A stretch of 39,216 nt of DNA. Source: a bacterium. Lineage in GTDB: Bacteria; Bacillota_I; Bacilli_A; RF39; UBA660. Below, one piece after another: positions 27,405 through 39,164 of this stretch. The stretch is taken from positions 23,470 to 62,685 of the forward strand of contig JAUNSN010000001.1 of assembly GCA_030539175.1 (NCBI GenBank), read 5' to 3'. Position numbers and translations under genes: made by a program. Numbering within the stretch: position 1 is the stretch's first letter; every line of letters starts with the position of its first letter. The notes under the pieces are model-generated. The model was not told the origin of the DNA. It made no database searches and was given only the letters and a program-made list of their open reading frames with translations.

Positions 27405-27845
27405 TCAGCAATTACTGTTATAATATTGTCTAGTTTCCCCATTAATAGATATTGGAAATTCAATTCCAAATATAGGGAAATTAAATACTAAATAAGTAGA
27501 TACTGAATAATAATACGTATTAGGGTCGGTAGATATCTTTTTGATACAAACTCCATTATTTCCCAATGTTGAACCTTCCATGCAATCAGAGTTTGTAATG
27601 GTATGTTGACTAACATTTGGATTATAATGCACTGATGATAAATACTCTTTAATTATGGCGTCAGTATCTGTTTTAACAGCACAATTTTCATTTATGTATC
27701 CATACGTATCTATTATGCTTATTACTTTATTTTTTACTCTAAATGCTTTTGCATAATTAATAGCAATTCCAATAAATATAATATATATACCTAGAAATAT
27801 TAAAAACCATCTTATTAAACCTGCTCCGCCAAAAGCATCTCTCAT
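27405..27845 (-). CDS. TadE-like minor pilin
   Basis: 146 residues, ATG after AGTAGGTGAT. One membrane segment near the start (about 11-30, WFLIFLGIYIIFIGIAINYA), then a soluble extracellular domain with four cysteines, the last being the C-terminal residue (NSNC). The layout of a short N-terminus, one membrane helix and an exported domain is that of TadE/TadF minor pilins of Tad pili, and the position at the end of the Tad-like locus agrees. Sequence identity to TadE is not obvious by eye, so the name is by context. Confidence 0.65.
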   Translation of the reverse strand: MRDAFGGAGLIRWFLIFLGIYIIFIGIAINYAKAFRVKNKVISIIDTYGYINENCAVKTDTDAIIKEYLSSVHYNPNVSQHTITNSDCMEGSTLGNNGVCIKKISTDPNTYYYSVSTYLVFNFPIFGIEFPISINGETRQYYNSNC

Positions 27846-28347: not shown

Positions 28348-29127
28348 TTACATCATTGTCATTGCTATAGCAATAATCATAAATAACATGGATGCGGCTC
28401 CAGTACATAACAACATTGTCATGGTCTTACTTTCCATTTTTTCAAGTCTTGATTTGTATTTTTGTTCTCTGGCTTTTTGTTGTAAATTAGATACTGACCT
28501 TGAGAAAGCTATTAATTGAGATTGTTTCTTGTCTTGCGATCCTATTCCTAAACGATATAATAATCTCATCATTCGCATTGAATCTCTTACTGGATATTCT
28601 TTAGCAAAATCCATGTATGGATTAATGCTTGAATCTCCAGCGTTAATTTTGTCTATTAAAGTTTTTAAACCAGGTCTAAATACATCTGGTGCATCTTTGA
28701 CAGATTTAGCTAAGGCAACTGGGACAGTATAGTGCTGTGCTAGTATTTCTAATGTTTTTAAATAGTAAGGCAGTAAAGAATTTATTTGTGATAAATGAAC
28801 TTTGTAAAATTTTTTAAGATTCATATAACTTGATTTATAGACGAACGCTCCAATACCAATAGATATTAAAACAGTAATAACAGAAAAGTTAGTGATAAAG
28901 GCTAATAGGATAACTATCGTTACTAATAGACCATTCTTAACTCTTTTCATATACAAAACTTCTGGTTCGACTGTATCGCCATATTTTAATCTTACTAAAA
29001 ATTCATAATCCTTTTCTTTCATCTTGTTAAATAGAGCTTTATTGTCGGCGACTAATTTATCACTACTGATAATATTATTATATTCAAAGAGAAATAAAAC
29101 TAAAGCGGCAACAATTACCATTTCCAT
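28348..29127 (-). CDS. tadC: TadC-like type II secretion F-domain protein
   Basis: 259 residues. Membrane segments at the N-terminus (MVIVAALVLFLF), in the first third (VTIVILLAFITNFSVITVLISIGIGAFVY) and at the C-terminus (MTMLLCTGAASMLFMIIAIAMTMM), with a helical cytosolic domain between, as in the GspF/TadC family. This protein forms the inner-membrane platform of the pilus with TadB. Its ATG shares one base with the tadB stop (TAATG). Confidence 0.85.
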   Translation of the reverse strand: MEMVIVAALVLFLFEYNNIISSDKLVADNKALFNKMKEKDYEFLVRLKYGDTVEPEVLYMKRVKNGLLVTIVILLAFITNFSVITVLISIGIGAFVYKSSYMNLKKFYKVHLSQINSLLPYYLKTLEILAQHYTVPVALAKSVKDAPDVFRPGLKTLIDKINAGDSSINPYMDFAKEYPVRDSMRMMRLLYRLGIGSQDKKQSQLIAFSRSVSNLQQKAREQKYKSRLEKMESKTMTMLLCTGAASMLFMIIAIAMTMM

Positions 29128-30023
29128 TATTCCGCACCTACATTCTCGTTATAATATTTTTCTCCGCTAAGGAGAAAATAACTATTTATTAGTATAATTC
29201 CATGAACTACTATCTTTACATACCATAAATCTATCATTCCTAGGTAACTTTCATTACCTAAAACTAGTTGAACAACCATTATTAAGGAATATAATGCCAA
29301 TCCAAATGTTAAGAACTGCTTATGAAATTGCGATCTTTCCATTTGATCTCTGTATACTCCCTCAACTAATCCATCAATATCGGTTAACATGTTTTCGAAT
29401 GTTTCGGCTGTATCTTTTGCCCCTTCTTTAGTAACTTGTAAAAATAATTGGTGCATATTTAAAACTATATTAAAAGGATATCTAGCATTCATATAATCAA
29501 TTGATTCTTGAACATCACCTTTTTCATAAGATAGTTTTATCATCATTTTAACATCTGATAATACTGGATCTTCTAATACACCTGACTCTACGACACCCTC
29601 TAATGATTTAACAAAGGCATTAGTTGTATTAAACTCCATTATAGTATTAGTTACATATACTTGTATTTGTTCAAATATAAATTCACTGTATAATCTTTTA
29701 TATTTTAAATAAGCAAGATAAGGTATTATTAATATTGCTGCTATAACATAGACAATTGATATTATTATGTTATAAAAGTAAAAATATGATATAACTGCTG
29801 CTACAGCACCAAATATTACTACTTGCATTGTATAATCTTTTACTGAATAATCTTGTCCCAATTCAGCAACTTTTTCTCTTACCTTTTGAAAAGAATATGG
29901 CATATATTTGCCATATGCATCACTTACTTTCTTTACAGCAAACTTATATACATTATCTCCTTGATTAGCTCGATATAGTACTATAAATAGTATAACTACA
30001 CCGATTATTATTATCTCTATCAT
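29127..30023 (-). CDS. tadB: TadB-like type II secretion F-domain protein
   Basis: 298 residues, ATG after GGTGAAAC. N-terminal membrane segment, a pair of segments at about 63-105 (VVIFGAVAAVISYFYFYNIIISIVYVIAAILIIPYLAY), a helical T2SF domain and two C-terminal segments. Same family as the following tadC, and the two are adjacent in Tad loci. It is the platform protein that the ATPase CpaF works on. Confidence 0.85.
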   Translation of the reverse strand: MIEIIIIGVVILFIVLYRANQGDNVYKFAVKKVSDAYGKYMPYSFQKVREKVAELGQDYSVKDYTMQVVIFGAVAAVISYFYFYNIIISIVYVIAAILIIPYLAYLKYKRLYSEFIFEQIQVYVTNTIMEFNTTNAFVKSLEGVVESGVLEDPVLSDVKMMIKLSYEKGDVQESIDYMNARYPFNIVLNMHQLFLQVTKEGAKDTAETFENMLTDIDGLVEGVYRDQMERSQFHKQFLTFGLALYSLIMVVQLVLGNESYLGMIDLWYVKIVVHGIILINSYFLLSGEKYYNENVGAE

Positions 30024-30038
30024 GTTTCACCTACTTTC

Positions 30039-31151
30039 TTAATTAGTAGTATTCATTTCATTATTCATTTGATTTTCTATTGGCTCATGAAATACTTCCT
30101 TTACTAAAATATCTGGTGGCATAATAATGCCTTGACTCTCAAGATAACCTAGTAAATACTTAGATGGGTTATTAACTATTACTTTACCATCGGGAGTTTT
30201 TTTGTAAAGTGTTTTTTCTTTTGGTTCGTTAGTATCTTCAGTAACATAAAACTCAACTACTTCTGCTACTTCACGATGAAATCTTTGATACTTATTACTA
30301 TAATAACCCTTAATATGAACACCTAATTGAATATATCGATATACACTTCTTAAAAACTGGTCAATATCTAAATTAGTTTCAAGCAGACTGTACATACGAC
30401 TTGGTATAGATGCGGCCTTATCGGCGTGAATTGTCGAGAGAATGTTATGGCCTGAAGAAATGGAATTTCTTACGGCCATAACTGCTTCAGCACTTCTTAC
30501 TTCGGACAAAAGTATCCATCTTGGGTTTTGTCGCATACATGTTACTAATATTTCGCTATAACTAGCGATGTTATTAGTTTTCATAGCAACTATATCGCGA
30601 TGGGGAAATATTTTATCTAAGTGAAGTTCTAAGGTATCTTCAACGGTAATAATTTTTTCATTTTCTTTGGTATGAGCGGCTAAATATTTTACAAATTCCG
30701 TTTTCCCAGACCCAGTTTCTCCACTTACAATGATGTTACAGTGTCCTGTAACACATTGTAAGAGAAAATCATGAATATCAAGTCTTATGTAGTCTTCTTC
30801 AATTATCTTGTCTTTTTGCAATCTAATTTTAGCTGGTGTTTTACGTATTAATACTGCTATTCCATTTCTAGCAATTGAATCATGAACGAAGTTCATTCTT
30901 AATTCCGCACTTTCAGCATCAAGAAATGGACTTGCCATATTAAATGTTTTCCCCATAACATTAGAGCATTGAAAGGCAATTTTTTCCATGAGAGCATTAT
31001 CTATGACATTATTTTCTAAACGAAAGACTCCTTTTGATAATGTCTTAACCCATAATTGGCCGTTATTATCATATGATATATCGGTAACATCATCATTATC
31101 TAACAATTGTTTTAATGGACCAAAATCTATTTGGGAAAACATATTATCCAT
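30039..31151 (-). CDS. cpaF: CpaF/TadA-type pilus assembly ATPase
   Basis: 370 residues, ATG after AAAGAGGGAT. Walker A is SGETGSGKT (143-151), the Asp box ITVEDTLEL follows, Walker B is ILLSEVRS, and the His box GHNILSTIHAD is complete. CpaF powers pilin extraction and pilus assembly on the cytosolic face of the membrane. The N-terminal domain (1-130) includes LRMNFVHDSIARNGIAVLIRK, typical of the family. Fifteen bases separate it from tadB. Confidence 0.92.
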   Translation of the reverse strand: MDNMFSQIDFGPLKQLLDNDDVTDISYDNNGQLWVKTLSKGVFRLENNVIDNALMEKIAFQCSNVMGKTFNMASPFLDAESAELRMNFVHDSIARNGIAVLIRKTPAKIRLQKDKIIEEDYIRLDIHDFLLQCVTGHCNIIVSGETGSGKTEFVKYLAAHTKENEKIITVEDTLELHLDKIFPHRDIVAMKTNNIASYSEILVTCMRQNPRWILLSEVRSAEAVMAVRNSISSGHNILSTIHADKAASIPSRMYSLLETNLDIDQFLRSVYRYIQLGVHIKGYYSNKYQRFHREVAEVVEFYVTEDTNEPKEKTLYKKTPDGKVIVNNPSKYLLGYLESQGIIMPPDILVKEVFHEPIENQMNNEMNTTN

Positions 31152-31168: not shown

Positions 31169-31960
31169 CTATCCTATTTCTGGCAACATATCAGAACTTA
31201 TATTAGCAGTTCGACTTAATATAAACTCTTTTAATTCTTGGTTTACTTCTAATGTATAATTATTAGCTGCTTCTTCACTAGCTGTTTGTGGTACTGGCTC
31301 TAATGATGTATTTGACAAATATAGTGCTTTTCTAACTAATAAATGTATTTCTTCTGGTAAAGCAATAATTAAATATGCTGGTGTTCTTGATTCATCAGTA
31401 TTTTCAAAAACGTGTCTACCACTTGAATCTTTTACGGCTAATATTTTAATGTTATTAAGTAATTTTCCATAAACTAGTTTATTATCATCATCATTTGTTT
31501 TTAAATAAAGATTAATATAATCGCCTGGGTACATTGAATTACCATATGTACTTTGTAAAGTAACTGGAAAATTAATAACTGTATATCCATCTTCAATACC
31601 AGCAAATGCTGAATTAGGTAGTTCTTTACTATCTATAATGGCCTCTTTGTAAAAAGGGCTTCCCTTGGGTATCATCGTATTGTAATTAGCAACTTTATCA
31701 GTTATATCTTTTACATTGGTTAGAATACCTTCTTGTATAAAACTAGCTGGTACAGGCATGTATGATATCTTGTCTATTGTAATTGTTTCAGTTGGTTGAA
31801 TTGTTGTATTGGCATATGGAATATTAACTGGTTCGGTAGCTGCATTAATTCTCCAGTTATAACCAATGTATAATACTACAATGGCTCCAATTACCCCTAA
31901 TATAGTTACTGTGTTTTTGTTTGATAAGAACTTTTTAATTGATTTGCTTAAACTATTCAT
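31169..31960 (-). CDS. CpaB/RcpC-like SAF-domain protein
   Basis: 263 residues, ATG after GGAGGATAG. One N-terminal membrane segment (about 17-34, TVTILGVIGAIVVLYIGY), then an extracellular part with a SAF-like stretch (KISYMPVPASFIQEG, MIPKGSPFYKEAI) and a second domain (MYPGDYINLYLK, ILAVKDSSGRHV). This layout is that of CpaB/RcpC proteins, which in Gram-negative Tad systems sit next to the secretin; no secretin is found here, so in this Gram-positive it may organise the pilus base in the wall zone. Confidence 0.8.
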   Translation of the reverse strand: MNSLSKSIKKFLSNKNTVTILGVIGAIVVLYIGYNWRINAATEPVNIPYANTTIQPTETITIDKISYMPVPASFIQEGILTNVKDITDKVANYNTMIPKGSPFYKEAIIDSKELPNSAFAGIEDGYTVINFPVTLQSTYGNSMYPGDYINLYLKTNDDDNKLVYGKLLNNIKILAVKDSSGRHVFENTDESRTPAYLIIALPEEIHLLVRKALYLSNTSLEPVPQTASEEAANNYTLEVNQELKEFILSRTANISSDMLPEIG

Positions 31961-31975
31961 TTACTATCCTCCTTT

Positions 31976-32389
31976 TTAACTTTTCATATATAGTATAGCA
32001 TCTAATTGATTTACTATATCAAATTGATCATTTTCTGATGTTTGATACTTAGTTGTAACATTAGTTTTATTTATTATTCTAATACTTACCTTAGGTGGTG
32101 ATTCTATTATATCATAAAATTCTATACTGTAACCAGTAAAATCGTAAGTTGCCGATGCAATATATCGTCGTGTAAAGTTTTCTACAAATTTTTCTTGCGA
32201 AATCTTTAATTCACCAGTACTTCTATAATAGGCTTTATCTACTGCCTCAAGCATTGATGCCTCTGTTACTTCTTTTATTAAATAGTAGTCTTGTTCATTT
32301 TTTGTTGTTAAATTTTGAAATAAGACAATAACTGATAACCCTGTTAGTCCCAACATAATAGCACCAATAGTTGCAAAAGACCATTTCAT
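31976..32389 (-). CDS. Small membrane protein, DUF5411-like
   Basis: 137 residues, ATG after AAGGGAAGTGA. A hydrophobic N-terminal segment (about 5-26, FATIGAIMLGLTGLSVIVLFQN), then a soluble domain beginning NEQDYYLIKEVTEASMLEAVDKAYYRSTGELKISQEKFVENFTRRY. I recall this pattern from DUF5411 proteins of uncultured Bacilli; the assignment is from memory. The layout resembles TadE-like minor pilins and it lies directly before the CpaB-like gene. Confidence 0.7.
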   Translation of the reverse strand: MKWSFATIGAIMLGLTGLSVIVLFQNLTTKNEQDYYLIKEVTEASMLEAVDKAYYRSTGELKISQEKFVENFTRRYIASATYDFTGYSIEFYDIIESPPKVSIRIINKTNVTTKYQTSENDQFDIVNQLDAILYMKS

Positions 32390-32409: not shown

Positions 32410-35376
32410 TTATGAACAACCAATTAAAGTATTATTTGACAACCCACAACCTAATGAGTATAATGGATCAGTTCTCACGATGGATGTAAACCTTTCAATA
32501 GCTATTCCATTTTTTTCGTTTAAAAAGGTACTTAGAAATCCATTATTATCCATGTCAAATGTTAAATAATTATTGTTTTTATTACGATTATATGCCAAGA
32601 CTTTACTTGCATCTGTAATTTTTACACTGTATTCTAATTTTTTTAGCTTTGATTCGTACGTATTAGCAATTCTATTTTGATTGGATGTATCTTCCCACCA
32701 ATCAGACCAATTAGTTGGTGCGGATGAAAATTGATCGTTATTAAATGTTGAGGTAATGTCTGTTGTTATAGGGGCATATTCAAAGTTGTAATCTATTATT
32801 TTTTCTTCTTTTTCCTCATAAAACTTTTGTTCTACATTAACTGAGCAACTATAGTTAACATTCCATATTCTTGTAGAGTTCCAACTAATTTCATTACTAG
32901 AATTTGAGTGGGATGCTGACAAATTTTTTAGTTCCGCCTTAACCTCAAATGTATCTTTTGTCCATGTAAGTGGAGTATATATTTTAGCCCCGCCAGAAAA
33001 ATATTGTTTTGTATTTTGAACAATATAAGAAATATTGGAAGTGGTCCTGTCAATATATGATTGCGGCAAAGTATAAACGTATTTAAAATTCAATTGATTT
33101 TCATCACCTGGAAGCCATAAGTTTTGATTTGTAATCCCATCTTTTTTGTAACCGATTTTTTCTGTTGAAGTTGGTTCCAACTTCCAACTTGCATCATCAT
33201 TGTATTTATTAGTATCTGTGCCGCTATTAACATCGACTGTTATTACATTAGCTTTACTATTATTGATTTTTTCTATTGCTGTATCCGTTGTTGCTTCAAT
33301 GCATCTTGATATTGCCTCAGGATTGCCTGTTATAGAATTATTGTTATTTGAATCACAATTGTTTGGCGCCAATGTATAGTCATAACCAGTACATTTATAA
33401 CATGTGTATGGTTGCCATATCCTGAATGTGGTTGTATATTCGTATTCAGGTTTAGTCGCTATGGTCGTTGTGCTAGTTGTAATACCTGTTTGATTTGAAT
33501 TTGGACACTCATATCTATAATAAGTTGTAGTTTTAGTTCCGCACGAAATTGAACTTGTGGTACTACGAAATTCGGTACAATTGCATGTATTGCAAATTGG
33601 GGCATTAATTTCTTTATTAGCAGATATATCGGTGCAACCCTTGAATCTTTTTCCATAACTTACATATTCGGCATATCCTGTTTTAGTCTCATTCCTTATA
33701 GTTTGTGTCCTAAAAGTAGTTTCACTATTAATCCTATTTTCAGCTATAGATTTGTTGTACGTCGTTCCTGAAGTTACAACTTCTTTTATAGATTCTACTT
33801 CTAAACAAACATGATCTTGTGATTTATAACTCCTTTGTGCCGCTGGACAAGATGGCATTGCTTCAGAATTAAATGTATATGAAGTTTTATAATCATAATC
33901 AAAACCAAACTCAAATCCTGTTCCGGCAGTTATCGTAGTTAATTCTGATATGTCGCTTTCTGTTTCACTTTTTTGTGTGTTTATATTTTTTTGATATAAG
34001 GAGTGAAAATTTACTTTGCCACTTTCATACCTAGTAATATTACATTTTTGTTTTATGGAATCAGTGGAACACACTACATTTGTGTTTGAAACTTTGCCAG
34101 TGCCACTGCTATTGTATGGCCGGTATTGATTTTTAACGTTTGTTGCAGTTATATTCCCGCTTGCATCCATTTTATTAAATTTAAGTTTATTAGTTATCTC
34201 TACCTCATCGTTGTAAAAGGCACAAAAATCTGTCGATGAACATGATACATCTTTAGTTGTTGAATTATTATCAGTTGAAGCATCATTAGGACAGTCTTTA
34301 AGTCCAGGTGGTATGTATATACTAGTCGATCCCTCTTCAGGTATTGTTTGAAAATATGAGCCATAAGCATAAGCACATCCGTATTCAGAGCCGTTGCATT
34401 GATTTAACGTTATTCCTGTTGGCTTTTCGTATGGTTCAACGTACATTCTACCACCAGAGCAAGCTTTAGTTATTTCACCACTATAACAGTAATAAGCTGT
34501 ACTTTGACAAAATCGGAGGTCTCCAGTGCCATTGCCACACGTTGTAGTGGAGACACTAGCATTCAGAGCTAAGTTTGTGGTTTTATATGCTAATAAGTAT
34601 GCGGCAGGAGACGTTGTTGTAGCCTCAACTTTCTTTCCTTCTGCCATATAATAATATATACTATTTTCTGATCTGCTATATTGCCAACTCAACCCTAACT
34701 GTAGCCGTAGTAATACGTTACTATTCAAATACCTTAAATGAGCATTACTTGCTGTCATTTTAACTTTATCTTTTAAACCATTTACGGTTATTCCCGATGA
34801 TATTTTATTATTGATACTATAAACTCCTATATCAGCTTCTTTAAATCCACCTATATCTGCGCCTGCCTCCCCTTCTGCGCGACTTGTTGTGTAAGCTTTA
34901 GTTTCTCCTTTTAAATCGTCATAGTCATCGCCTTGTGAATTACAACCTTGATATGTTCCTGTTCGATTGTCGTTTATTCTTATCTTAAATTCAATGTCTT
35001 TTCCTTGGTATTTAGTCGCATCTATAGTTGCTTTAAAACCAACATCATAGTAAATGTATGCTTCTCCGTTTTCTTTTTCTAACATCTTGTCAAAAAAATT
35101 TCGTTTGTCAACTCCCCCATTATACCCTTGATTAATGGCGTTTACATAGTCAAGCTCTATATCATTTTCAACTACTATTATTTGAATTTGAGGACTGCAA
35201 TTATCATATTTATGGATAAAAGCCCATCCTTCAAATACTATATTATTTCCCTCCATTGACAATTCTTCTATCTCGTATATTAAGTCTCCTGCACCTGCAT
35301 TTACCTGTTTTGGTAATATAACCATAAGTGTAAGTAAGGTTAGTAGGCTTACAAGATATATGTTTTTTTTATTCAT
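32410..35376 (-). CDS. Large secreted cysteine-rich protein, copy 2 of a duplicated module
   Basis: 988 residues. Signal peptide of about 27 residues (cleavage after VNA), no C-terminal membrane segment and no LPXTG. Mature part has 28 cysteines and many Asn, Thr and Ser. It shares blocks with the 789-residue protein encoded upstream: GDLIYEIE...VFEGWAFIHKYDNCSP near the N-terminus, IYYDVGFKA, IGVYS...GLKD, GTGFEF, then YxLPxxxIxRxT, PLTW, FYEE, DYNFEYAPITTD and TSTFNND, ending in LGCG...GCS. The middle (about 230-640) is different. Probably a surface or pilus-associated adhesin; function unknown. Its ribosome binding site GGAGG lies inside the Arg codons at the end of the preceding gene. Confidence 0.8.
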   Translation of the reverse strand: MNKKNIYLVSLLTLLTLMVILPKQVNAGAGDLIYEIEELSMEGNNIVFEGWAFIHKYDNCSPQIQIIVVENDIELDYVNAINQGYNGGVDKRNFFDKMLEKENGEAYIYYDVGFKATIDATKYQGKDIEFKIRINDNRTGTYQGCNSQGDDYDDLKGETKAYTTSRAEGEAGADIGGFKEADIGVYSINNKISSGITVNGLKDKVKMTASNAHLRYLNSNVLLRLQLGLSWQYSRSENSIYYYMAEGKKVEATTTSPAAYLLAYKTTNLALNASVSTTTCGNGTGDLRFCQSTAYYCYSGEITKACSGGRMYVEPYEKPTGITLNQCNGSEYGCAYAYGSYFQTIPEEGSTSIYIPPGLKDCPNDASTDNNSTTKDVSCSSTDFCAFYNDEVEITNKLKFNKMDASGNITATNVKNQYRPYNSSGTGKVSNTNVVCSTDSIKQKCNITRYESGKVNFHSLYQKNINTQKSETESDISELTTITAGTGFEFGFDYDYKTSYTFNSEAMPSCPAAQRSYKSQDHVCLEVESIKEVVTSGTTYNKSIAENRINSETTFRTQTIRNETKTGYAEYVSYGKRFKGCTDISANKEINAPICNTCNCTEFRSTTSSISCGTKTTTYYRYECPNSNQTGITTSTTTIATKPEYEYTTTFRIWQPYTCYKCTGYDYTLAPNNCDSNNNNSITGNPEAISRCIEATTDTAIEKINNSKANVITVDVNSGTDTNKYNDDASWKLEPTSTEKIGYKKDGITNQNLWLPGDENQLNFKYVYTLPQSYIDRTTSNISYIVQNTKQYFSGGAKIYTPLTWTKDTFEVKAELKNLSASHSNSSNEISWNSTRIWNVNYSCSVNVEQKFYEEKEEKIIDYNFEYAPITTDITSTFNNDQFSSAPTNWSDWWEDTSNQNRIANTYESKLKKLEYSVKITDASKVLAYNRNKNNNYLTFDMDNNGFLSTFLNEKNGIAIERFTSIVRTDPLYSLGCGLSNNTLIGCS

Positions 35377-36094
35377 ATATGTTGTTCCTCCTACGCCTTT
35401 TTCTATATAGAATTATAAAAATTATTATCATGGATATAATTATTACTAGTGATATTATTACTGCATAATTTTTTTTCAAAAAACTGATTATATTATTTTC
35501 TTTTATATCTAAAATATTGTCTTGTTCTAAATCATCTTGCTTAGTTAAATATTCTTCATATAGTTTATTGTAATACTCTTCTAATTTTAAATTAAACGTT
35601 TCTTCATCAATAGAAAATTGATACCATGGATCACAGTAAATGAATTCTTTCGTTTCTATTCCCTCACACCTTTCATCTAAAGAATATTCATTAAAATTTG
35701 GTATTGATAAATATATTGTTCTTAGTACTTGATGGCAAATGCCCATTCCGTAAATTTTAAATGTGTATTCTCCTTCCGTATAATTATTAAGGATTGTAAC
35801 TCCTTGGTATGTTTCTTCATAACTAATTGTTGTAAAGACTCCTGTCTCTATCATTACTTCCTCTGTAAGACCACTTATATTAACGTTAAAGCCACCATGT
35901 ATAATATTACCATCTTCATCTTCTATATCCCCCACATATTCATACTCTATAGTTATTTGTGAGGCAATATCTTTTAATCTAGCTATTTCATCTGCACTAC
36001 ATTCATATATTATATCTTCTTCTGCATATACTGCATTAGTATTAATTAGAAAACTACTAATTAATACTAATACCAATAATGTTATTTTTTTCAT
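35369..36094 (-). CDS. Membrane-anchored partner protein, copy 2 of a duplicated module
   Basis: 241 residues, ATG after AAAGGAGGTAAT. Signal peptide (cleavage after VYA), an extracellular domain with four cysteines, a charged linker, one C-terminal membrane segment (about 210-230) and the basic tail KRRRRNN on the cytosolic side. The domain shares with the 227-residue protein: ITIEYE, GGFNVNISGLT, ET at the strand end, YTFKI, LSIPNFNEYS, RCEGI and CDPWYQF. I recognise no named family. It overlaps the large secreted gene by eight bases, so the two are made together. Confidence 0.8.
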   Translation of the reverse strand: MKKITLLVLVLISSFLINTNAVYAEEDIIYECSADEIARLKDIASQITIEYEYVGDIEDEDGNIIHGGFNVNISGLTEEVMIETGVFTTISYEETYQGVTILNNYTEGEYTFKIYGMGICHQVLRTIYLSIPNFNEYSLDERCEGIETKEFIYCDPWYQFSIDEETFNLKLEEYYNKLYEEYLTKQDDLEQDNILDIKENNIISFLKKNYAVIISLVIIISMIIIFIILYRKRRRRNNIYE

Positions 36095-36114
36095 TAGATA
36101 TTACCTCCTTTGAT

Positions 36115-38484
36115 TTATGGTTTATTAATTATGTTACTGTCGCATCCTTCAATATCATTATTTTCTGGTCCACAACCAAGTTCAAATTGATTAGCGTTTG
36201 TTCTGGTGACAGCATCGGTAGCATTATTCAACGTTGTACTTGTTCCAGTTTTTTGTATAGTATTGAAACTAGCATAACTGTCATCAGGATGAGTTGATTT
36301 ATTCAATTTGACAATAGTATCTTGTAATGTCGGCGATAGTGTTAATTCATACTCTATATTACTATAAGTATCTTGTATCCTTTGTCTTCTTCCTGCTATA
36401 TTAATATCGCTTATTATGATTTCTCTAGCATCACCCCAATAAGTTTGCCAATTTATTGGTACTCCCGTTTCAGGAAAGGTTGTTACATTAAAGAAGTCAT
36501 TATTAAATGTTGATGTTGGATCCGTTGTTATAGGCGCGTATGCAAAATTATAATCTATTAGTTCTTCACTAGGGGGATCTTCTTCATAAAAATTTTGCTT
36601 TGTACTTACACCGCATGTATAGGTAAAAGATGAGCTATATGTATTGAGGGGGATATCTGTACTAGGATAATGGAGTGTATCTACTGATAAAACGTATTTA
36701 AACTGATTATTACCGATACCGTATTTACTTGTTTTCCAAGTTAGTGGAACAAAGATATTGTTGCCACCGGAAATACCATCATCGACTAACTCAGATACGT
36801 ATGTAACCTTTGCAGTTTGGCGATTAATTTCTGCTAATGGTAAATTATAGTTGCATTCAGTTTTTATTTCTTCTCCTTCTTCGAAACTATTGCTTACCCT
36901 TTTGCATTCCCATTTTGAATTAGGTTGATTAGCTGGTTCAGATGTTTCACTATTTGGGTCGGGGGTAAAAAGGGCTGTATTGGTTGGAGTTATTTCCTTA
37001 TTCTCATATGCTGTTCGCAATGCTTTTTTACATAAATTTTCTGCATCAGCGTCATTTTTACAAACATCGGAGTAAACTTTGTTTCCAGATGAGTCTATTT
37101 CATATGGACACTGTGGTCTCAACTCATTTGAGTTGTACTCTTTCCCATCAATATGAACCGTGTCCACGCCTAATTTACCATACAAATTGTATTTGACTGT
37201 ATTTGTATACTCCACGTCATCACTAGTAAATGTAAATCCCATACCAGAAATAATTGGATTAAGCTCAGTTGAATGTTTGGTATCATCAAATTGAAAGAAA
37301 TAAGTTTCTGTTCTTTGGATTTGACAATGTATATTTTTCACTACATCTTTAGTACTTGTTTCAATAGTGGTTTCATATATTGCATTACCTTCTTCATCTA
37401 CTTTTTCAGTGTCAACTTCTTTAATTTGTTCTTTAGTAACATTCTCTATAGTAACTGGTATTTTTAGCGTTTGGCTACATGTTGTTGTTTTACTTAAAAT
37501 TGATTTTTCTAAGTCACCTGAACATGTTAACTCTGAATTTTCAGTGGCGCACTCTGTTGCTGGTGGACTATATGGTTTTTCTATCTTTATAGGGTCTATT
37601 TCTGTATTAATCCACGACGTTATTATTCCTCCCCATTGGTCTGATTCTGTACATTCCTTGCTTGATGGGTTGCAGGTACTTATAGCCGAGTACCCTCCAG
37701 TAGTGGAAGTAAATCCATCTATGTACGCAAAATATTCCTTGGGTTTATTTTCTGTGGCGGAATAATACTTATTATCAACCAATTTATATCTTGTTTCGTT
37801 TCCCCACCAATAGTAGTCTTTCCTACTGTAGTTAGCACTCTCCTGTACGTGTGAGTGTGTTGCTGTAACGTTAATATAATCTTTCATTCCAGTTACACCA
37901 ATTTCTCTTGCCGATGCCTCAACACTATTACTGTATACTCCTATTGCTTTTGTTTTTGAATCCGAAATTGATTTTCCTGGTTTCCCATCCGCTTCTTCTG
38001 TAGTTTTGACGTATTTACTTTTACCTGTTTTAAATTTGCTAGAACTATCAAGAGTTGAATTACATTGAGATACATCAGTTAAGTTTTCATCCGTTTGGAT
38101 GTTATTACTAATAGTTATCTTAAAACTAATATCACTTTTTTCGTCAAAATCAGATAAATTAAATTTCGCCTTAAACCCTACATTATAATACAGATAGTTT
38201 TCTTTAGCAGCGTCCTCTTTCATCCACGCATAAAAGTTCCTTTGTTTTCTTTCTAAAGCAGCGGTTGCTATATAGTTATCTCCTTCATAAGCTGTTAAGC
38301 TTATTGCTGGCGAACAATTATCGTACTTATGGATGAACGCCCATCCTTCAAATACAAGGTTACCCTCTTCTACTCTTAAACTTTCAATATCATATATTAA
38401 ATCACCTTCGTTAGCCAATACTTTAGTAGTAGGTACAAAACATAAAAGGATAAATAATAATAAAATAATCAATTTCTTCTTCAT
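36115..38484 (-). CDS. Large secreted cysteine-rich protein, copy 1 of a duplicated module
   Basis: 789 residues. Signal peptide (cleavage after VLA), no C-terminal anchor. Mature part has 16 cysteines. N-terminal block GDLIYDIE...LVFEGWAFIHKYDNCSPAI and LYYNVGFKAKF; C-terminal blocks YNLPLAEINRQTAKVTYV, FVPLTW, NFYEE and IDYNFAYAPITTDPTSTFNNDFF, ending LGCGPENNDIEGC. These match the 988-residue paralogue; the central part (about 230-560) is unlike it. The ATG overlaps the stop of the 227-residue gene (ATGA). Likely a surface protein acting with its membrane partner; function unknown. Confidence 0.8.
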   Translation of the reverse strand: MKKKLIILLLFILLCFVPTTKVLANEGDLIYDIESLRVEEGNLVFEGWAFIHKYDNCSPAISLTAYEGDNYIATAALERKQRNFYAWMKEDAAKENYLYYNVGFKAKFNLSDFDEKSDISFKITISNNIQTDENLTDVSQCNSTLDSSSKFKTGKSKYVKTTEEADGKPGKSISDSKTKAIGVYSNSVEASAREIGVTGMKDYINVTATHSHVQESANYSRKDYYWWGNETRYKLVDNKYYSATENKPKEYFAYIDGFTSTTGGYSAISTCNPSSKECTESDQWGGIITSWINTEIDPIKIEKPYSPPATECATENSELTCSGDLEKSILSKTTTCSQTLKIPVTIENVTKEQIKEVDTEKVDEEGNAIYETTIETSTKDVVKNIHCQIQRTETYFFQFDDTKHSTELNPIISGMGFTFTSDDVEYTNTVKYNLYGKLGVDTVHIDGKEYNSNELRPQCPYEIDSSGNKVYSDVCKNDADAENLCKKALRTAYENKEITPTNTALFTPDPNSETSEPANQPNSKWECKRVSNSFEEGEEIKTECNYNLPLAEINRQTAKVTYVSELVDDGISGGNNIFVPLTWKTSKYGIGNNQFKYVLSVDTLHYPSTDIPLNTYSSSFTYTCGVSTKQNFYEEDPPSEELIDYNFAYAPITTDPTSTFNNDFFNVTTFPETGVPINWQTYWGDAREIIISDINIAGRRQRIQDTYSNIEYELTLSPTLQDTIVKLNKSTHPDDSYASFNTIQKTGTSTTLNNATDAVTRTNANQFELGCGPENNDIEGCDSNIINKP

Positions 38485-39164
38485 TTCTTATCACTTTCCT
38501 TTTTATTATTTTTAAAATATACTATTATACCAATAGCAATTATAACTATACCAATAATATAGACATAATAATTTAATATAAAGTCTAGTATACTATTACC
38601 TGCTTCTTCTATTACTAGTGCTGCTCCTTGATTACTAGAATTACTACTATTTTGATATTCAGCTAATCTAGTTGAAAATTGTTCTTCGGAAATAGTAAAT
38701 TGATACCAGGGATCACATAATGTAAATTTAGTTGTATCTATTCCTTCACATCTTACATCTTCTGAATAATAATTATATTTAGGAATTGATAAGGCTAATG
38801 TCTTTATTTCATATATACAGTTACTATCAGATATTACTTTAAATGTATATGAACCTCCTTGAAAGTTAGATTGTGTTACAGTACCTTGATTTTTATCTGT
38901 ATAGCGAAATATTGCAAAAGGACTTGTATTTGTCTCTACATATACATCTGGTGTTAAACCAGATACTATAACATTAAAGTTTCCATTATCTGTTTCATCT
39001 ATTTCTTCTTCATATAAAGGGGCATGTTCGTAGGTTATAGTTACTTGATTAGCAAGATTATTTAATCTTGTTTTTTCTTCTGTTGTACAATAGTTTGCTT
39101 TTACTGGTATAGTTATAAAGAATAATATTGTTGTTAGTAATATATAGTTAATTTTATTTTTCAT
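38481..39164 (-). CDS. Membrane-anchored partner protein, copy 1 of a duplicated module
   Basis: 227 residues, ATG after GAGGAGGTAAAG. Signal peptide (cleavage after VKA), exported domain with four cysteines (in NYC, SNC, RCEGI and LCDPWYQF), a Ser/Asn-rich linker, one C-terminal membrane segment (about 197-216) and a basic tail. Shares with the 241-residue paralogue VTITYE, GNFNVIVSGLT, YTFKV, LSIPKYNYYS, RCEGIDTTKF and CDPWYQF. It is the first gene of the pilus locus in the window. I recognise no family. Confidence 0.8.
   Translation of the reverse strand: MKNKINYILLTTILFFITIPVKANYCTTEEKTRLNNLANQVTITYEHAPLYEEEIDETDNGNFNVIVSGLTPDVYVETNTSPFAIFRYTDKNQGTVTQSNFQGGSYTFKVISDSNCIYEIKTLALSIPKYNYYSEDVRCEGIDTTKFTLCDPWYQFTISEEQFSTRLAEYQNSSNSSNQGAALVIEEAGNSILDFILNYYVYIIGIVIIAIGIIVYFKNNKKESDKK

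Follow-up and report, generated by a model that had tools for sequence, protein, structure and literature searches.

A two-gene unit of fast-evolving exported proteins in the Tad pilus operon of uncultured Bacilli: candidate pilus tip or surface adhesin

Here, we show that a Tad pilus operon of an uncultured member of the Bacilli (lineage UBA660) carries two copies of a gene pair, in which a small membrane-anchored protein (Sm) precedes a large secreted protein (Big). On sequence grounds, the approximately 90 positional equivalents of Big are a single protein family, defined by a C-terminal domain of ~170 aa. Our best reading, drawn from this architecture, is that Big is a Sec-exported tip or surface adhesin of a Gram-positive Tad pilus. 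We would give an even chance to the fuller proposal that Sm and Big constitute a two-gene accessory unit of the pilus, with a docked C-terminus and outward-facing variable parts that serve as tip or adhesin.

Results

Operon layout and Tad apparatus

The window, by which we mean the whole stretch of 39,216 nucleotides analysed (G000:C10:23470-62685), lies at a contig end. The host species is uncultured; its genome (1.29 Mb, 79 contigs, 96% complete) is a metagenome assembly, as are those of the relatives. On the minus strand, reading from the contig end, the genes run Sm1-Big1-Sm2-Big2-DUF5411-CpaB-like-TadA-TadB-like-TadC-like, followed by a small gene (Table 1). From Sm1 to TadC, they overlap or lie no more than about 20 nt apart, so a single transcript is likely. 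A promoter-like TTGTGA-18-TATAAT, recognized by consensus match only, is present 5′ of Sm1 on the same strand (39208-39179).

Table 1. Features of the Sm-Big units and the adjoining Tad genes (positions within the window)
Feature	Position	Strand	Remarks
Sm1 (227 aa)	38481..39164	-	signal peptide, extracytoplasmic domain, C-terminal TM helix, basic tail; opens the operon on this contig
Big1 (789 aa)	36115..38484	-	large Cys-containing secreted protein; signal peptide, without C-terminal anchor
Big1 N-module, aa 26-143 (GDLIY...FEGWAFIHKYDN...GFKAKF...FKI)	38056..38409	-
Big1 middle, aa 291-540	36865..37614	-	collinear with relatives; conserved Cys312, Cys321, G414/Y426
Big1 C-terminal family domain, aa 620-789	36115..36627	-	YAPITTD...NW, a variant of YRPIDLxNPFP...GxNW
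Sm2 (241 aa)	35369..36094	-	paralogue of Sm1
Big2 (988 aa, 28 Cys)	32410..35376	-	paralogue of Big1
Big2 N-module, aa 30-147	34936..35289	-
Big2 middle, about aa 300-767	33076..34479	-	~214 residues absent from Big1; Cys/Thr-rich
Big2 C-terminal family domain, about aa 820-988	32410..32919	-
DUF5411 protein	31976..32389	-	PF17424 E=9e-47; N-terminal TM, minor-pilin-like; adjoins Big in nearly all relatives
CpaB/RcpC-like SAF protein	31169..31960	-	TIGR03177 E=6e-7, PF16976 E=1e-4, both under curated cut-off
TadA/CpaF secretion ATPase	30039..31151	-	PF00437 E=7e-27; TIGR03819 E=8e-31, under cut-off
TadB-like membrane protein	29127..30023	-	position and conservation in relatives; no family match of its own (Pfam, NCBIfam)
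TadC-like membrane protein	28348..29127	-	position and conservation in relatives; no informative family match (Pfam, NCBIfam)
Small protein at the place of the relatives' TadE-like genes	27405..27845	-	position; no Pfam match

The locus contains a TadA/CpaF ATPase, a CpaB/RcpC-like protein recognized through two matches that both fall under the curated cut-off, and, beside TadA, two co-linear membrane proteins that are conserved in relatives and individually have no Pfam or NCBIfam match. Far from the operon, the genome encodes a 73-aa Flp-type pilin with the motif GQTLVEYILII (L163:1725-1946, G000:C67), which matches PF04021 (E=3e-5) and PF04964 (E=2e-4) and scores under the Pfam Flp_Fap cut-off; similar weak Flp matches are seen only in genomes of the host's family. 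An A24 prepilin peptidase is encoded as well (PF01478 E=1e-15, G000:C38). The presence of pilin and prepilin peptidase in one genome leads us to expect a filament. A search of the host genome for TadZ returned no match, a weak test in that its sole query was a relative's protein of ~330 aa at the TadZ position, the gene for which itself has no Pfam match. An RcpA secretin is not expected in a cell that lacks an outer membrane.

The DUF5411 protein takes longer forms in some relatives. In L037:7051-8577 and L042:3646-5349, it carries a D-Ala-D-Ala dipeptidase (PF01427) as a C-terminal fusion, joined by SH3_3 in the case of L042, making a pilus-linked protein with a peptidoglycan peptidase (M15). 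In other loci (L069, L072, L076, L078, L080, L082, L083, L086, L087, L089, L091), it measures ~300-340 aa and has an extra C-terminal domain; Big is mostly short in these species (545-684 aa; 802 aa in L080).

In relatives, the gene for a 528-aa RKPYAF-like membrane protein usually lies just upstream of Sm. The host has this gene on a separate contig, followed by a tRNA-like stretch (L164:4364-5950, G000:C68), the window ending at a contig edge. A gene for a thioredoxin-like membrane protein is located a few genes upstream of it, which is not enough to claim disulphides in Big; no VKOR-type disulphide catalyst was found in the host genome.

The Big family in relatives

Relatives were sampled as 32 stretches of DNA and 80 named loci reached through TadA, which was used as the anchor instead of Big1 after a direct search of genome contigs with Big1 gave no match. 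The named loci are, by title, metagenome assemblies of uncultured Bacilli, Tenericutes or Clostridiales, many of them from gut or rumen. In nearly all of ~105 loci of related genomes, the order is Sm-Big-DUF5411-CpaB-TadA-TadB-TadC, and downstream of TadC there are usually one or two TadE-like genes and the ~330-aa gene. Big ends a median of 11.5 nt before DUF5411 starts. The shortest complete Big has 543 aa and the longest 1566 aa; cysteine makes up 1.5-5.7% of the residues. The N-terminus is signal peptidase I-like in 79 of the 85 complete Bigs, none of which carries LPxTG, and a C-terminal hydrophobic run is found in only one.

Big and Sm are by far the fastest-evolving genes of the operon. 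In loci where TadA is 77-84% identical to that of the window, identity is only 23-30% for Big and 27-36% for Sm. BLASTP with the window Bigs (E=1e-3) found no Big in the family sample, and only the nearest loci among the named ones. By contrast, an iterated HMM of the last ~170 residues, built on the nearest loci, matches 84 of 93 Bigs. The ORFs that it matched among 1242 controls (L048, L056, L067, L099, L113) are themselves unlabelled Bigs, and hence no unrelated ORF was matched. The domain bears the signature [YF]R[PT]I[DS]L-x-NPFP-xx-R-xx-G-x-NW, located ~80-160 residues from the C-terminus, of which YAPITTD is the variant in the window. A scan of 392 genomes from the phylum gave 19 matches to the domain, of which 18 lie within the host's family. 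The family was represented by 36 sampled genomes, 33 of which encode DUF5411 (PF17424); no genome from outside it scored above cut-off, in one count of 23 genomes and another of 24. Among 60 relatives, the C-terminal domain is missing from all three family genomes that have no DUF5411 and from each of the 24 outside-family genomes; two further family genomes (G013, G017) carry a Big that has diverged beyond the reach of the profile.

Sequence searches of the Bigs against Pfam, NCBIfam and PDB gave nothing significant, and no enzyme domain was found with Pfam or NCBIfam. AlphaFold models of Big1 (pLDDT 57; the better-predicted stretch, 310-645, covers most of the middle) and of its C-terminal 290 residues (pLDDT 67) had no PDB fold match below E=0.001. 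Weak matches to RIFIN, adenovirus and YjeF, all under cut-off, were dismissed as low-complexity or TM artefacts.

Sm and the duplicated unit

Over a stretch of 147 residues, Sm1 and Sm2 share 44% identity. Since each Big is preceded by a paralogous Sm, the duplicated unit consists of two genes, Sm and Big, a point missed by the preliminary description, which dealt with the two Bigs. An N-terminal hydrophobic segment is present in 70 of 78 Sm members and a C-terminal TM in 75.

Big1 and Big2 are sisters (support 99/95), as are Sm1 and Sm2 (93/83). Clustering by genome is also seen for the three Bigs in G030 and for the two in G035; tandem duplication has therefore occurred at least three times independently. 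Second copies of Big are found at other sites in G004 and G034.

Some loci depart from the common arrangement. One lineage is without Sm (L054:8988-11640, L055:8737-11337, L058:8149-10786, L066:7802-8596) and has a sortase-like protein directly upstream of Big; in L054, L055 and L058, an Ig-like/DUF6273-type surface protein is upstream of Big as well. In G022 (L063, L074), Sm directly precedes DUF5411 with no Big between them, and the Big domain of this genome is found on contig G022:C13.

Comparison of Big1 and Big2

The preliminary description had proposed that the 988- and 789-residue proteins share a scaffold, conserved at both ends, with a swappable region in the middle. Its genes, coordinates, lengths and motifs are accurate, and the conserved ends are readily seen. 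BLASTP of Big1 against Big2 gives two blocks only, one N-terminal (Big2 24-297 versus Big1 21-278, 35% identity, E=3e-33) and one C-terminal (Big2 768-987 versus Big1 546-781, 32% identity, E=1e-26), with nothing significant between them. In a forced global alignment, identity is 43% over Big1 residues 1-290, 30% over 291-540 and 37% over 541-789. Opposite Big1 291-540, Big2 has 214 additional residues, in agreement with the proposed variation in middle length. The score of a direct local alignment of the two middles is reached by 51 of 500 shuffles and hence does not stand out from chance. Two further features have no value as evidence. The cysteine count of 28 is correct for Big2, but Big1 has 17, which becomes 16 only after the signal peptide; and the evenness of these numbers is attributable to chance, as cysteines are even in number in 48 of the 85 complete relatives. 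The window proteins share the LGCG...GC ending only with one sub-clade (L075, L077, L079, L084, L085, in variants).

A profile of 23 relatives, from which the window proteins were excluded, matched both Big1 (1-783, E=6e-58) and Big2 (1-985, E=1.4e-53) collinearly, and three cysteine columns in the middle are common to 22-24 of 25 sequences. These observations imply that the middle is not a swapped cassette. Big2 differs from Big1 mainly by added residues. A conserved scaffold with variable exposed parts is the best description of the family; a swappable middle is at odds with this collinear homology. Nor is there any sign of recombination or of phase variation. Where residues are identical, their third positions agree at 0.48, versus 0.51 expected from codon usage, and this holds inside the conserved blocks too; such synonymous saturation indicates that the blocks are old and kept by selection, rather than products of recent conversion. 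No third or silent copy of Big was found in the host genome. Apart from the two conserved coding blocks, long repeats are absent from the region, and it has no repeats or tracts suited to inversion or slippage.

Variable zones

Fifteen pairs of close species, with TadA at least 90% identical, stood in for strains. Mean identity across these pairs is 0.48 for the N-terminal third of Big, 0.56 for the middle and 0.67 for the C-terminal third. The N-terminal third is less conserved than the C-terminal third in 14 of the 15 (Wilcoxon p=0.0002), as is the middle (14/15, p=0.001), but the N-terminal third falls below the middle in only 10 (p=0.14). Hence, on mean identity, it is the N-terminal third and not, as previously suggested, the middle that diverges most between close species. 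Identity rises from 27-55% to 64-94% past ~350 alignment columns in the pair L050/L139, and from 17-30% to 58-88% past ~300 columns in L124/L125.

The GDLIY...FEGWAFI block corresponds to a discrete N-module straight after the signal peptide, detected in 12 Bigs at E<1e-11 and more weakly in two others (L049, L111). It is present in L070/L073 and absent from the sister lineages L068/L071. A likeness of this module to beta-sandwich domains of some surface enzymes was unsupported by Pfam and PDB searches. Tandem paralogues within a genome (in the window, G030 and G035) hold their ends while the middle changes length. Together with the data on close species, this places two variable zones in Big, an N-terminal head and a middle insert.

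Discussion

Judged by their architecture, the Bigs most likely form the exposed, variable part of the system that touches other surfaces. With its type I signal peptide, Big would be exported unfolded by Sec. The conserved C-terminal domain of ~170 aa would then dock it onto the pilus machinery or tip, the partner being most plausibly the neighbouring minor-pilin-like DUF5411 protein, or else membrane-anchored Sm. The N-terminal third and the middle insert would be displayed outward and may bind surfaces, mucus, the host or other bacteria; disulphide bonding may occur in Big. With two Sm-Big units, the cell would have a choice of tips or adhesins. Evidence in favor of a tip includes the family-wide linkage to DUF5411 and Tad genes, the pilin and prepilin peptidase of the genome, the signal peptidase I-like N-termini of Bigs that hardly ever have an anchor, the low identity of Big where TadA is still 77-84% identical, the gradient of conservation from a least conserved N-terminal to a most conserved C-terminal third, and the independent duplications. 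Other observations count against it. To our knowledge, the Tad tips described so far are minor pilins of the TadG type, and soluble proteins secreted by Sec are not among them. Big has no sequence or fold similarity to PilY1 or adhesin domains, the models being weak; the TM anchor of Sm is equally compatible with a complex at the cell surface and with a pilus tip; in one lineage Sm is replaced by the sortase-like gene and the Ig-like surface protein; and the weak test for TadZ gave no match in the host genome. Of the roles suggested previously, that of an adhesin is the likeliest reading of the architecture, while no features of switching were found to go with a phase-varied antigen.

It is conceivable, though unlikely, that Sm and Big make up a platform on the cell surface from which the pilus rises. 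In it, Sm would hold Big at the membrane, and Big would provide the exit of a monoderm Tad machine or its passage through the wall, with variable regions facing the wall or the outside. The N-terminal hydrophobic segment and C-terminal TM of most of the 78 Sm proteins would suit such a platform, as would the pairing of Sm and Big in most loci and their joint duplication, the fusion of DUF5411 to the M15 peptidase in L037 and L042, and the sortase-like gene in place of Sm. However, a structural base should evolve slowly, like TadA-C, rather than fastest in the operon, as Big and Sm do, and several copies per cell are more easily explained by interchangeable tips. We consider it still less likely that Big is cargo that a Tad-like secretion machine releases as an effector or exoenzyme, and no part of the fibre. 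The lack of a C-terminal anchor is consistent with release, and PMC9523054 predicts from gene context that a DUF5411 operon is secretion-related. Yet a protein with its own Sec signal peptide has no need of a second export route in a monoderm, the conserved part of Big is C-terminal, its co-occurrence with DUF5411 is strict, and no enzyme domain was found in it.

A slightly weaker case can be made for Big as an obligatory factor in pilus assembly or sensing, with no binding function and with variability due to loops under relaxed constraint. A priming role in assembly is known for PilY1 itself (PMC7541494), and gaps and divergence coincide in place in Big, but a whole N-module that one sister group has and the other lacks (L070/L073 versus L068/L071) exceeds loop drift. 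Finally, it is very improbable that the Bigs are surface antigens that vary in phase or recombine, with a middle open to swapping, as the preliminary description had it. Conserved ends and a middle of variable length, in the window paralogues and in G030 and G035, are what one would look for in such antigens, but the middle is collinear with relatives and just two copies exist in the genome. Saturated synonymous sites, even in conserved blocks, and the lack of silent copies and of repeats suited to inversion or slippage leave the idea unsupported.

The tip reading invites comparison with known systems. PilY1 of type IVa pili, which occurs in three clusters in M. xanthus, has a type I signal peptide, a poorly conserved N-terminal region and a conserved C-terminal domain that binds minor pilins (PMC7541494). 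PilY1/PilC (PF05567) and Big have in common the signal peptide, the variable N-terminal and conserved C-terminal parts, the proximity of minor-pilin-like genes and the presence of several copies in some genomes. They differ in that Big goes with a Tad pilus, not T4aP, in Gram-positive-type Bacilli; its C-terminal domain is of ~170 aa with another motif, and it has a membrane-anchored partner, Sm. No match to PF05567, the PilY1 beta-propeller, was obtained in 50 Big members, and no fold match either. The Kil Tad pilus has variable large tip proteins, with several interchangeable sets per genome (PMC12075869). TadE/TadF/TadG and the Kil tips thus resemble Big as variable large proteins encoded with a Tad system; TadG and KilN, however, are pilins with an N-terminal alpha1 helix, whereas Big carries a cleavable Sec signal peptide and its start does not resemble that of a pilin. 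Neither a TadE/G domain (Pfam) nor a pilin alpha1 segment was found in Big, in keeping with the signal peptidase I-like N-terminus of 79/85. As far as sequence can tell, Big is not a member of the PilY1 or TadG family. The tip of the Streptococcus sanguinis T4P (PilA-PilB-PilC), as cited in PMC12075869, is an adhesive modular tip on a Gram-positive pilus; its subunits are of pilin type with lectin and vWA modules, and no such modules were found in Big.

The secretion-related prediction in PMC9523054 concerns a DUF5411-CpaF-PilC operon of Roseburia, Ruminococcus and Eubacterium, the large protein of which is reported there to have a weak Internalin-B likeness. Likened by description, that operon and the window share CpaF, DUF5411, a large secreted protein and probably a GspF-like protein. 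In the portion of the paper considered here, the large protein is assigned neither a family nor a domain architecture, and no partner gene or evolutionary pattern is described for it. Relative to that description, the Big family, its signature, the Sm partner, the variable head and the repeated duplication are new.

We tentatively propose, at somewhat less than even odds, that Big represents a family of Sec-exported, often Cys-rich tips, in which the plan of PilY1 evolved independently for the Tad pili of gut Bacilli, and that duplicable Sm-Big cassettes provide several tip specificities per cell. Close species with near-identical pilus machinery and different Big heads offer ready test pairs. 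If the proposal is true, a type IVa-like tip strategy would exist in Tad pili of Gram-positive-type bacteria. Most of what is known of small-genome Bacilli of the host's kind comes from metagenomes of the human and animal gut; the proposal would put a name to their main device for attachment in the gut, together with a sequence signature for it, YRPIDLxNPFP...NW beside DUF5411.
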